A stretch of DNA of 64,000 nt from Gilliamella sp. wkB171 (GTDB lineage Bacteria; Pseudomonadota; Gammaproteobacteria; Enterobacterales; Orbaceae). The notes under the pieces were generated by a model that saw only the letters and a program-made list of their open reading frames with translations, did not search any database and was not told the origin of the DNA. Numbering within the stretch: position 1 is the first letter of the stretch; each line of letters begins with the position of its first letter. The translations under genes were made by a program, and so were the position numbers. The stretch covers positions 1 through 64,000 of the forward strand of contig NZ_LYST01000031.1 of NCBI RefSeq assembly GCF_001693755.1. Direction: 5' to 3'. Below, piece after piece: positions 37,159-42,309 of the stretch.

Positions 37159-39522
37159 TTATTCAAATGCTGTTGTATAAGGTAGTTTACCAAAATTCAA
37201 CATTTTTGCTTTTACATCACGATTATGGCCTAGACCCATTAACTCAAAATTAACTGAAAGTTTATTTTCATATTTACTATCATGGGATATCCAATCCCAA
37301 TCTGTCAATTTACGTCCATATTGAACAGTCATACCCCAACAGCAGTCACTATAATGTAATCCAACTGAGCCATCTGCGGTTTGCCCCAATTTAATATCAT
37401 AATAATAAGAACCAACAGCATCTATTGTTTGAGATAATGGCCAAGTAGTCACAATACCTGCTTGGGAAATATCTTGTTTATAGCCTTTATATAACGAACT
37501 TTTATCTACCGTATTAATATAGTTATGATTAGCATAACGATAAGATAGCTGTAGTAATTTCTCACTTGAAGGACGATACTCAAGTATCGTGTTGGCTAAA
37601 GAAATAGTATCAATACGTGTATCGTATTGTACACCACTTCTAAAAATCACATCGTCAGTAATACGCCAGAAATTATCCGATGCCCAAGTAATACTACCTG
37701 TATCAGAATTTTTATCTATTTCGGTATTGTGTTCACTGGTTTTTGATTTAGTAAAATAGGTGATTTGTCCGATTGATAAATTAAATTTTTCTACCTTGCT
37801 TTCATCGTAAAAACGAGTCGTCACACCAGTAGCGATATTATTAGCTGATGCAATGCGATCTAACCCACTATAAGGGAGATCTCTAAATAGACCGATATAA
37901 TCGTATTGTAAGAAAGTAGAATCATAGCTGCCAATATTTGACTGATTGCGATATGGAATATATGTATATTTTACTCGTGGCTCTAAAGTTTGGGTATAAC
38001 CCTCAATCAGATCAAAATCACGCTCAAAAATCACTTTTCCATCGATACTAAATTTAGGCATAAAACGATTAACACTTTTGTCTAAGTTTTGGTATCTTTC
38101 AATAGATTTTTTAATATTATCTTGGTTGTAGTGCGTTGCCATTAAACCACCAGACGCACTTAATGAAGCCCATGTATTGGTGATAGTATAATCAAGAGTA
38201 GGTTCAATATGTGCACGCCAAGCTTTCGGGTTATTTTTTCCTGAACTTAAAAAGCGTGATACTTGTGAAAAGGTTTTAAATTTAAATGGACCAAAATCAT
38301 AATTATAATAGTTCATATTTAATTGTGGTTGAGTTTGGTATAGTGAATCTCTAACTCCATCATGGAATGCTTGGAAGTGTCTATAACCCAGAGTAATATC
38401 CCAACTAGGATCATTGTAGCCAATTTTATAAAATTGAGTTAAATATCCAGCTGTTTGTGACGCATATTTAGAGTTCAAATCTGTTAGATATTGATTGTCA
38501 CTTACGCGTGTAGTATCTGCCTTAAAACGCCAATTGTAATTAATTAACTCATCGTTTTTCCAGTAGAATAACCAACGATGGCGGTTATCATCATAATTTT
38601 GACCATTTAATAATCTATCTCGATCATCATCATATTTGTTATCATGTTGTAACCAATCAAAAGCCACCGTGCCTAAACCTAATTGATTTAAATAGCGGAA
38701 CTCTGTCTGTAACTGAACGCCTCTACGCTGTAATATTCTTGGGGTAAATGTTGCATCATAGTTAGGTGCAATATTCCAATAAATTGGTAACGAAAAATCA
38801 ATACCATCGACACTATCATAATTTAAATTAGGCATTAGCAAGCCTGAACGGCGTTTATCACCAGTTGGTAACTGTAAATAAGGTGAATATAAAACCGGTA
38901 CTTTCCCAATACGAAATACTGCATTCCATACTTCAAGTAATTGCTCTTCATTATCATGGATCACTGTGCTACCTTTTACACTCCATGTGCTGTCATCGAC
39001 AGGACAAGATGTAAAACTACCATTTTTCAAAATAACATAGCGATTTTTTTCAAGCTTCATCTCGTCTGCGTTACCGCGGCCTAGTCGGTTAACCAGATGA
39101 TAATCACTCGGTGTAATATTCGCATCATTATTATCAAGATTCATCAAGGCATCATTGCCTTTAATTCTTATCAAATTATCTTGATAAGTAATATCGCCTT
39201 GCAAAGTAACAAGTCGATTACTTTTATCATGAGAATCAATCGTTACTCTATCTGCTTGTACGGTACGATTCCCTTGTTCGACAACTACATCACCTTGATA
39301 AATTATTTTGTCTGGATAAAGTGCTTCAAACTGGTTTGCTTCGGCATCAACAGGCAGTGTTTGGATATCACCCTCAACTAATGGGCGATCGAATTTAGGC
39401 ACATCGATGAGGCATTGTGGATTATTAATAACAGCTTTAGGTAATCCGATAGCATAACTGCTACTATTATATAGACAAAGAGTAACGGTTATTGCAATAA
39501 ATGAAGGCGCTAATTTTTTCAT
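37159..39522 (-). CDS. lptD: LPS-assembly protein LptD
   Basis: LptD forms the outer-membrane barrel that with LptE places LPS on the cell surface. The 787-residue precursor has a signal peptide (about 1-24), a periplasmic beta-jellyroll (about 50-190) with the OstA repeat pattern, and a 26-strand barrel. Cys37, Cys173 and the pair Cys727-Cys728 correspond to the four cysteines that form the two non-consecutive disulfides in E. coli, so oxidative maturation is conserved. It is the first gene of the lptD-surA-rsmA-apaH run. Confidence 0.96.
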   Translation of the reverse strand: MKKLAPSFIAITVTLCLYNSSSYAIGLPKAVINNPQCLIDVPKFDRPLVEGDIQTLPVDAEANQFEALYPDKIIYQGDVVVEQGNRTVQADRVTIDSHDKSNRLVTLQGDITYQDNLIRIKGNDALMNLDNNDANITPSDYHLVNRLGRGNADEMKLEKNRYVILKNGSFTSCPVDDSTWSVKGSTVIHDNEEQLLEVWNAVFRIGKVPVLYSPYLQLPTGDKRRSGLLMPNLNYDSVDGIDFSLPIYWNIAPNYDATFTPRILQRRGVQLQTEFRYLNQLGLGTVAFDWLQHDNKYDDDRDRLLNGQNYDDNRHRWLFYWKNDELINYNWRFKADTTRVSDNQYLTDLNSKYASQTAGYLTQFYKIGYNDPSWDITLGYRHFQAFHDGVRDSLYQTQPQLNMNYYNYDFGPFKFKTFSQVSRFLSSGKNNPKAWRAHIEPTLDYTITNTWASLSASGGLMATHYNQDNIKKSIERYQNLDKSVNRFMPKFSIDGKVIFERDFDLIEGYTQTLEPRVKYTYIPYRNQSNIGSYDSTFLQYDYIGLFRDLPYSGLDRIASANNIATGVTTRFYDESKVEKFNLSIGQITYFTKSKTSEHNTEIDKNSDTGSITWASDNFWRITDDVIFRSGVQYDTRIDTISLANTILEYRPSSEKLLQLSYRYANHNYINTVDKSSLYKGYKQDISQAGIVTTWPLSQTIDAVGSYYYDIKLGQTADGSVGLHYSDCCWGMTVQYGRKLTDWDWISHDSKYENKLSVNFELMGLGHNRDVKAKMLNFGKLPYTTAFE

Positions 39523-39596
39523 TAATGATTAAAAGTAATGATGATTATTTTAATTTAAGCATTATAGCGGTTATTTATAAAAGTGCGAAAGAAAAA

Positions 39597-40931
39597 TTAA
39601 TGTTTAGCCCTGCGTTTATTTCTTTTACTCAACTGGTTAACCATGCTAATTCTTTTCTCAATTGAGGTATGTTGAAATTCATCCCACCATTTAGCTAAAT
39701 CTAATAATTCCCCTTTTTCAATAGATGCCCGCATTTCTAATAAATCATAAGCTGCTCGGAATTTAGGATGTTCTAAAATGGCAAATGCACGTTTACCTTC
39801 ACGCTTTTTCATGCGTAATTGTAGTCGCCAAATATCACCCATTATCGATGTTAAACGTTTTGGAATAGCAATAATTTGACATTGTTCACTTAAAATATCA
39901 TTGATAGCCATCGAAAAAGCATCATGGAATTGTAAGCCACTTTCAACACACGTTAATTGTGTTTGTTCCATAATTGGATACCAGAAGAAAGCAGCAAATA
40001 AAAATGCTGGATTAATACGTTGATTATGATCAATTCGGTAGTCAGTATTTTTTAAAACCTGTTCAATCATCTTTTCTAAATAGCTATTGTTATTTCCGGT
40101 AAATAATCGTTGAATAACTGGAAATAATTGTTCAAACAGATGATACTCTTTCAATAATAGGTAGGTTTTGTATCCATGACCTGATTGCAGTAACTTTAAT
40201 GATTCATCAAATAAACGAGCTGCAGGAATATTTTTTAATAACGGCGCAAGCTCTTTAATTGGTTCTGCTGTTGCTTGCTCAATTGTCATGTTGAGTTTTG
40301 CTGCAAAGCGAATTGTTCTTAACATTCGCACAGGATCTTCTCGATAGCGAATTTGCGGATCACCAATTAAGCGAATAATACCATTTTGTAAATCTTTTAT
40401 GCCTCCACAATAATCGCGCAGTGTAAAATCTTTAACACTGTAATAAAGCGCGTTCATTGTAAAATCACGTCGCAAAGCATCTTGTTCAATCGTACCATAG
40501 ACGTTATCACGTAATAACATACCGGTTTGCGATCGTTTGGCAACATTACTTTGCTCATCTTGAGAACTATGTTCGCCACGGAAGGTAGCAACTTCGATAA
40601 TCTCTTTACCAAACATAATGTGTGCAAGACGAAAACGGCGGCCGACTAAACGGCAATTTCGAAATGTTTTTTGCACTTGTTCAGGTGTCGCATTTGTGGT
40701 GATATCGAAATCTTTTGGTATTTTTCCTAATAAAAGATCGCGAATACAACCACCGACTAAATAAGCTTCATATCCTTGTTTGTTTAAACGATAAAGAACT
40801 TTTAATGCATTTTCACTGATATTTTTACGAGAAATATTATGTTCATTACGTGAAATAGAAATATAGCGAGATTGTTTGTGTTCTTCATGGCGAAACATTT
40901 TGCGATAAAAGCGAGAGACTTGTTTAAAAAT
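39597..40931 (-). CDS. pcnB: Poly(A) polymerase I, with ATT start codon
   Basis: PcnB adds poly(A) tails to RNA 3' ends and so promotes decay by exonucleases. The 444-residue protein has the nucleotidyltransferase signature [18 protein letters not shown] with its two catalytic aspartates, the [15 protein letters not shown] block and a basic C-terminal tail. The only upstream conventional start is TTG 40958, with no ribosome site. The codon aligned with the E. coli N-terminus is ATT at 40931-40929, preceded at ideal distance by GAGGTG (40941-40936); the protein then starts [14 protein letters not shown]. coli pcnB is known to use AUU, so I give this start. ATG 40898 would cut conserved sequence only slightly and is the main alternative. 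Confidence 0.9.
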
Positions 40932-40977
40932 AGTGCACCTCAAACGTGTATGAACCAAAATGGCAATATAGCGCGCG

Positions 40978-41006
40978 ATTATATAATAATTGCTTATAAC
41001 TTTCCA
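40978..41006 (-). promoter_or_regulatory. Candidate pcnB promoter
   Basis: On the - strand, TGGAAA (41006-41001) and TATAAT (40983-40978) are separated by 17 bases. Transcription would start about 40 bases before the ATT start of pcnB. Confidence 0.6.
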
Positions 41007-41382
41007 TTTTTCTTATTATCCGAATTTTAATTGGATGAAAAGCAGGTATTTTCTCATTTTAAATGAATATTCTATTTGATTTTTTGGCAATAATTATCAA
41101 CAATAGCAGTTTATAGAGTAGAATTAGTCAAATAGCTTTAAAAGGCATCAATACCTGTTTATACATATTTCATGCATTATTTAACAAGCTGATTAAGGTT
41201 TACTACAACCTATGCTCAAAACTTCTTTTTTAATTCATTGTAGAAAACAATAGATATAGGAAGCAAATTAAACATTTTGCTTAATTTTGTGAGTAACATG
41301 AGTAATAGTAGTTTAACAAATCGCTACTGACAAAAAGTCGATTGAGTATATAACATTAACTGATAACTTATTGGGGGACATT
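41007..41382 (+). other. Non-coding region upstream of oxyR
   Basis: No gene or structured RNA was recognised in this AT-rich interval between divergent pcnB and oxyR. It should hold the oxyR promoter. TTGAGT at 41342 with TAACTT 16 bases on is a weak candidate. I did not find a convincing OxyR half-site array. The oxyR ribosome site GGGGGA is at 41373-41378. Confidence 0.4.
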
Positions 41383-42309
41383 ATGAATATTCGTGATTTG
41401 GAATATTTTGTTTCGTTAGCTGAATTTCGTCATTTTCGTAAAGCCGCTGATGCTTGCAATGTGAGTCAACCAACATTAAGTGGACAAATCAGAAAATTGG
41501 AAGATGAACTTGGTGTAATGTTGCTAGAACGTACTAGTCGTAAAGTACTATTTACACAAACAGGTATGATGCTTGTTGAGCAGGCTAAAGAGATCTTACG
41601 CAATATCCAAATCTTAAAAGAGATGGCAAGTCGTCAAGGTGAAGAGATGTCTGGTCCGATGCATATTGGCTTAATACCAACAATTGCACCTTATCTATTA
41701 CCACATGTAATAACGGTATTACACGAATCTTTTCCGCAGCTTGAACTCTATTTACATGAAGCACAAACTGCCAATATAGTTGCTCAACTTGAGAGTGGTA
41801 AGCTCGATTGTGCCATTGTTGCACAGGTTAAAGAAACATCACAATTTATAGAATTACCATTATTTGATGAACCGATGTTTTTAGCGGTTCCGGCTACCGA
41901 CGAATTAGCCAGTAAAAGGACAATTAAACTTTCTAGTTTAAAAGGGCATAAGTTTTTGATGTTAGAAGATGGTCATTGTTTACGTGAACATGCAATGGGA
42001 TATTGTTTTCAAGTCGGCATTGATGAAGATAAACAATTTAAAGCGACAAGTCTTGAAACATTACGCAGTATGATTTCTGCTGGGCGAGGTATTACGTTGT
42101 TTCCTGAATTAGCAGCACCAAATGAACGTATTCGTGATAATATTTGCTACATTCCTTGTACAGATCCTGTTCCAGTGCGAAGCATTGCTCTGATATATCG
42201 TCCGGGATCGCCGTTACGTTCCCGTTATGAAACCATTGCTAAAACAATTCGAGATCACATGCCAAAAGTATTTGCTGAGAAAGAGCGTTTGTTAGAAAAA
42301 GCGAATTAA
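41383..42309 (+). CDS. oxyR: Hydrogen peroxide-responsive LysR regulator OxyR
   Basis: OxyR activates peroxide-defence genes when a disulfide forms. The 308-residue protein has the LysR winged helix-turn-helix (residues 1-60, MNIRDLEYFVSLAEFRHF) and the C-terminal sensor domain. Cys199 and Cys208, in LEDGHCLREHAMGYC, are at the same numbers as the redox pair of E. coli OxyR. ATG 41383 is chosen over TTG 41371 because the latter is part of the GGGGGA ribosome site region. fabR follows within 40 bases; in E. coli sthA lies between them. Confidence 0.96.
   Translation: MNIRDLEYFVSLAEFRHFRKAADACNVSQPTLSGQIRKLEDELGVMLLERTSRKVLFTQTGMMLVEQAKEILRNIQILKEMASRQGEEMSGPMHIGLIPTIAPYLLPHVITVLHESFPQLELYLHEAQTANIVAQLESGKLDCAIVAQVKETSQFIELPLFDEPMFLAVPATDELASKRTIKLSSLKGHKFLMLEDGHCLREHAMGYCFQVGIDEDKQFKATSLETLRSMISAGRGITLFPELAAPNERIRDNICYIPCTDPVPVRSIALIYRPGSPLRSRYETIAKTIRDHMPKVFAEKERLLEKAN

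Follow-up and report, generated by a model that had tools for sequence, protein, structure and literature searches.

The pcnB gene of Gilliamella sp. wkB171, which encodes poly(A) polymerase I (PAP I), probably starts at an AUU codon (40931-40929, minus strand) that is placed by the ribosome site GAGGUG and is orthologous to the start of E. coli pcnB. This start would have been inherited and kept by purifying selection in the Orbaceae and in most of the sampled families of the order, with a low yield that moves with initiation factor 3 (IF3). We give this joint claim a probability of about 0.88. The gene lies in a stretch of 64,000 nucleotides that was analysed as a whole and is called the window here (features in Table 1).

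Table 1. Features at the start of pcnB in the window and the basis of each assignment
Feature	Position	Strand	Basis
pcnB CDS (poly(A) polymerase I, 444 aa, read from ATT)	39597..40931	-	NF008634, TIGR01942
ATT initiation codon (putative)	40929..40931	-	ATT with ribosome site in 44/44 family genomes; homologous to annotated E. coli K-12 pcnB ATT
Shine-Dalgarno GAGGTG, 4 bases 5' of ATT	40936..40941	-	Pairing, conservation
TTG, only conventional upstream in-frame start; rejected	40956..40958	-	Counterpart in 3/44
In-frame ATG, codon 12 counted from ATT; rejected	40896..40898	-	Met in 18/44, without ribosome site
Promoter-like TGGAAA-17-TATAAT, then GC-rich CGCGCGC	40978..41006, CGCGCGC reaching 40965	-	Consensus scan

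The open frame of pcnB spans 41012-39597 on the minus strand and closes with a stop at 39597. Its first ATG, GTG or TTG codon is TTG 40958, with which the list of open reading frames begins. Downstream of this codon the minus strand reads CACGTTT GAGGTG CACT ATT TTT AAA CAA GTC, so that GAGGTG ends 4 bases and its GAGG core 6 bases before ATT, and the pairing energy of the site is -6.9 kcal/mol. The sequence-only reading had called this ribosome site ideal. That description holds for the strength of pairing; it does not hold for the match to the anti-Shine-Dalgarno, which is off-centre though the pairing is strong, and the site of E. coli pcnB is termed 'poor' in the accessible part of one paper (PMC9764084). 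Initiation at AUU would place formyl-Met at this codon and give a product beginning Met-Phe-Lys-Gln-Val.

PcnB models cover most of the product read from ATT. TIGR01942 scored 511.3 bits, far over its cut-off (305.65), and NF008634 (PcnB, PRK11623) scored 701.3 bits, marginally under its curated cut-off of 702. The closest named matches, in an alignment led by the window PcnB as query, were those of Gilliamella apis (84% identity) and G. apicola (83%). The ATT residue aligns with the first position of NF008634, and the first eleven residues resemble those of E. coli (IFTRVANFCRK), in keeping with the earlier claim that the N-terminus read from ATT aligns with E. coli PcnB.

We compared the pcnB upstream regions of 44 Orbaceae genomes, the window's own included, all of which carry the gene. 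In every one of them the homologous codon was ATT, preceded by a ribosome site that was usually GAGGTG and otherwise GGGGTG or GGAGT. Across 39 distinct rows the mean majority base was 1.00 for ATT and 0.93 for the ribosome site, versus 0.50 across positions -45 to -21 (25 bases). Between the upstream in-frame stop and ATT, 17 of the 44 genomes had no ATG, GTG or TTG, and six had none as far as the conserved domain; an in-frame ATG upstream of ATT was present in four. Judged from these alignments, the recurrence of ATT together with a ribosome site is more than chance.

The same comparison bears on the two conventional codons from which pcnB could be read instead. Were TTG 40958 the start, ATT would be an ordinary isoleucine codon, and this TTG is indeed the only conventional in-frame codon upstream in the window. 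Yet, as had been noted from the letters, it has no ribosome site: it was not among the starts with a pairing of -5 or better. Its counterpart is found in only 3 of the 44 relatives, its place lies beyond an in-frame stop in 23, and it stands 20 bases after TATAAT, which would leave a leader of about a dozen bases. We rejected TTG 40958 because of its poor conservation and missing ribosome site and regard such a start as extremely improbable. The second candidate, ATG 40898, would yield a shorter protein and is canonical and in frame; its pairing energy, however, is +1.9 kcal/mol, its place is Met in 18 of the 44 relatives, the remainder having Phe, Leu or Ile there, and the eleven residues before it are those with similarity in E. 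coli. It was set aside on the same two grounds, and we consider a start there very unlikely. None of the family genomes lacked ATT and used ATG 40898 in its stead.

Nor was conserved coding sequence seen upstream of ATT. In 39 of the 44 family genomes a TATAAT lies at -62 to -39 relative to ATT, and in 19 the GC-rich CGCGCGC follows it directly (TATAATCGCGCGC). We argue from the placement of TATAAT and from the variable bases that the region upstream of ATT is promoter and leader rather than coding sequence. The consensus scan itself returned five promoter-like sites in the region versus 3.3 expected by shuffling, which is not significant alone. GC-rich discriminators are often linked to stringent control. 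The CGCGCGC behind TATAAT would match the ppGpp/DksA control reported for E. coli pcnB promoters in the available text of PMC9764084. In the window, pcnB (region 39522-41386) is flanked by lptD downstream and by a divergent oxyR upstream, unlike the gluQ-pcnB-folK arrangement of E. coli K-12, and the AUU start is therefore not an effect of the E. coli operon.

The order sample comprised 148 genomes, 137 of them with pcnB at the threshold used. Scored together, the family and order samples gave 173 genomes, many of them close relatives, so that the following counts are not independent. ATT behind a ribosome site was found in 117 genomes, ATC behind a site in eight, ATT or ATC without a strong site in seven, and other configurations in 41. 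ATT or ATC thus occupied the homologous place in 132 of 173 genomes, and ATH was found in the majority of genomes for 16 of 25 families. The earlier expectation that the rare start is conserved in the Gilliamella lineage was borne out, and its conservation proved wider than supposed. Among 80 named loci, some of which belong to the same genomes, 51 had ATT and 13 ATC with a site, one had ATA with a site, three had ATT or ATC with no strong site in front, and the remaining 12 were other. Positives included Citrobacter, Enterobacter, Serratia, Photorhabdus, Proteus, Aeromonas, Shewanella, Psychromonas and Photobacterium. The loci scored as other are eight Vibrio loci, Hartigia, Gullanella, L329 and L342. 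In L329 and L342 the next codon is ATC or ATT, preceded by a weaker AAGGT site, and these two may be AUH starts after all.

We also placed the homologous codon by a protein profile that ignored the codon itself, although choosing the profile seeds by ATH with a site brought in a mild circularity. At a score of at least 12, reached in 201 loci, the codon was ATT in 157, ATC in 22, ATA in one and other in 21, 14 of which had ATT with a site one codon on; AUG occupied the homologous site in none of the 201 loci where it could be placed. Profile placement was one codon off in families f12 and f13 and in a few others, for which the adjacent ATH with a site was taken instead, and a few codons assigned at low score (in one f3 locus, f18 and some f9 loci) are possibly spurious. 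In four f21 loci the codon just before the homologous one is ATG. In five f16 loci (L066, L069, L073, L076 and L081) a GTG within AGGTG is in frame with ATT or ATC, and either GTG or ATT/ATC could be the start.

Most Vibrio lack the AUH start, and so do certain other families and symbionts. The 41 genomes lacking it (of 173) include all eight of f8, all three of f14, seven of the eight of f22, which groups with Vibrio on the protein tree, and eight of the nine of f3. An in-frame ATG occurs in 42 of the 53 loci scored without AUH, and in 37 of those 42 no ATG is well paired. Exceptions with a good site are ATG in L074, L119, L150, L155 and L313 and GTG or TTG in L085, L111, L144 and L174. An ATG without a good site fits selection for low output, as if by another route. 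The contrast is only modest because the ribosome sites of the control gene recR are weak too (median -2.2 kcal/mol).

For the class, 149 genomes were sampled, of which 140 had pcnB at the threshold used and 138 of these lay outside the order; the 89 loci examined came from the better-scoring end, which biases this sample towards closer relatives. From the upstream stop as far as the conserved domain, ATG was missing from 40 of the 89 loci, and ATG, GTG and TTG were all missing from 12. In the 40 loci without ATG, ATH stood behind a well-spaced site in 15 of 119 cases, NTG in 0 of 27 and codons other than ATH in 41 of 819 (ATH versus other, P=0.0025). Over all 89 loci the enrichment was not clear, at 20 of 224 for ATH versus 126 of 2025 for other codons (P=0.08). 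Six of the 12 loci without a canonical codon have ATT with a pairing of -5.5 or better at a fitting spacing (L186, L223, L236, L242, L255 and L264), the clearest single case being L223, where CGGAGGTGCACG is followed by ATT. Of the other six, four have a weaker ATT or ATC, L246 has none that is clear, and L263 has only CTG. AUH starts of pcnB thus probably occur in other orders. As a separate observation, 32 of the 89 loci (among L177-L265; for example L181, L183, L199, L201, L206 and L227) carry TATTATAC no more than 200 bases before the conserved domain, a count given without a chance expectation; the motif may be a promoter box followed by a short leader.

On a FastTree phylogeny of 113 PcnB proteins, built with the N-terminus excluded and labelled AUU, AUC, AUA or other, the start labels required 16 changes, about 12 among AUU, AUC and AUA and about four between AUH and other. 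Taken by itself, the label AUC requires 12 changes, 11 of them forced by well-supported branches. No shuffle of the labels was as low, and such clustering is as expected of an inherited trait. ATT usage bias had also been considered as proof of the start and was demoted. A naive test of ATT versus ATC/ATA gave P=6e-13, a value that ignores phylogeny and is not to be taken at face value; we set it aside because a phylogeny-matched comparison showed internal conserved Ile columns to be similar. In 90 non-Orbaceae genes the ATT share was 0.79 at the start and 0.80 and 0.71 at internal columns. By ATT share the start came second among 10 conserved Ile columns outside the Orbaceae, itself counted, and first among 24 columns in 30 Orbaceae genes.

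As a control we used recR, in which a canonical codon was sought 8 to 30 codons before the conserved motif. Five of 30 loci were unanchored and dropped, and all 25 anchored loci had a canonical codon (24 ATG and one GTG). The sister enzyme gene cca had been tried as a neutral control and was dropped for recR: searched within 8 codons of the conserved motif, its 30 order loci (L347-L376) gave 14 GTG, nine ATG and four TTG, that is GTG or TTG in 18, and three (L350, L373 and L374) had no canonical codon. Weak starts may be a habit of the nucleotidyltransferase superfamily.

The AUU could be real and nevertheless be kept by some other constraint on the first codons or the mRNA, such as an RNA element or the N-terminal peptide, rather than by selection for a weak start. 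The N-terminal peptide of PcnB is itself conserved, and the spacing of the ribosome site is strikingly fixed (exact G[AG]GGTG-N4-ATH in 139 of the 190 loci scored as ATH with a site). Against this, the third base of the start moves among U, C and A, yet G is unseen at the site. No special RNA fold was found around the start in the two segments folded, from the window (z=0.63) and L106 (z=1.97), both of which were less stable than their shuffles. The ATGs of the AUH-less loci also look as if low output were kept by other means, with the exceptions given above. We hold such a constraint unlikely as the reason for the conserved codon and favour selection for a weak start at AUU.

In the mechanism that we propose for the AUU start, the strong ribosome site would recruit the 30S subunit to the pcnB AUU, and IF3 would reject most of the complexes that pair initiator tRNA with this codon. 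The yield of pcnB would consequently be low and would move with IF3 activity relative to 30S subunits. Window pcnB has the sequence precondition for discrimination by IF3, namely a start other than AUG, GUG or UUG. What the sequence comparison shows is the homology of the codon, its ribosome site and conservation, the lack of alternative starts in many relatives and an ATT start in infC of the same genome; from these we infer that initiation takes place at AUU in the cell, that IF3 discriminates against it in Gilliamella, that the protein level is low and that selection acts on low dosage. Selection on low poly(A) polymerase levels and the tie to IF3, both suggested in the sequence-only reading, draw on the E. 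coli literature and on the pattern of codon change. A single point mutation would turn the start into AUG, and keeping a poor start in the majority of genomes for 16 of 25 families can be taken as evidence of long-term dosage selection at initiation. More tentatively, the AUH start may be ancestral in gammaproteobacterial pcnB and selected because synthesis is thereby coupled to how much IF3 there is per free 30S subunit, tuning RNA decay driven by tails to translation capacity, with the lineages that lost it having taken AUG or GUG, mostly with a poor site; we regard this wider scenario as possible but doubtful. Overproduction of PAP I has been reported as toxic, in seeming contradiction to the growth to OD 1.5-3.5 that the available passages of the same paper record (PMC11760895). 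Start callers that consider only ATG, GTG and TTG, noted as a habit in the accessible text of PMC5601948, may misplace pcnB, although the E. coli Nissle record that we examined is correct. Lineages without AUH, such as most of the sampled Vibrio, offer natural replicates for the purpose of the rare start.

In E. coli, Binns and Masters reportedly described the AUU start of pcnB in 2002 and found that AUU limits translation (PMID 12068810). In the records of E. coli K-12 and Nissle 1917 the annotated pcnB begins at the homologous ATT, and GAGGTG-N4 before ATT is common to the window, K-12 and Nissle. E. coli reads CGAGGTGTACT ATT TTT ACC CGA, with the same 4-base spacing as in the window, in another organism and another gene neighbourhood. 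According to the part of PMC9764084 that is available, the AUU and the ribosome site, there called poor, keep PAP I low in E. coli. Open PubMed Central literature, available as partial texts, yielded no mention of a pcnB AUU outside E. coli, which the 2002 paper may discuss, and its passages contained no report of an IF3 test on pcnB; in the accessible text of a paper on pcnB transfer, 'start codon' is used only for a distance (PMC8208693). For E. coli the AUU start is a finding of 2002; what is added here is its breadth, of which the open texts contained no earlier report.

Rare starts with a comparable design are known from other phyla. In Staphylococcus aureus, cvfC1 (AUU) and ccpN (AUA) have strong extended Shine-Dalgarno sequences and gave lower yields than AUG in reporters, as stated in the available excerpt of PMC13009471. 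Like pcnB, these genes pair a Shine-Dalgarno with AUU or AUA and are described there as conserved; unlike it, they are unrelated genes of another phylum, the conservation of cvfC1 being named for staphylococci (PMC13009471). The sigR gene of Streptomyces starts at GTC, and the title of the paper names IF3-mediated repression (PMC5472188); on this partial record sigR resembles pcnB in its rare start and differs in codon, gene and phylum.

A parallel within the window's own genome is infC (L346, G000:C8:51218-51724), in which an in-frame TGA is followed by GAT and by ATT AAA GTC behind GGAGGA, with no ATG, GTG or TTG in the 22 codons after ATT. In work by Butler et al. (1987) and Sacerdot et al. 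(1996), infC, which encodes IF3, is said to start at AUU and to be autoregulated. In the accessible passages of PMC9410913, infC and pcnB are named as the two E. coli genes that start with AUU, and IF3 is described as discriminating against the AUU of infC. The window's genome seems to have retained in infC the AUU start on which IF3 autoregulation relies in E. coli, and its infC and pcnB share a rare AUU behind a ribosome site. Since pcnB is not IF3's own gene, any effect of IF3 on it would run one way, with no feedback loop.
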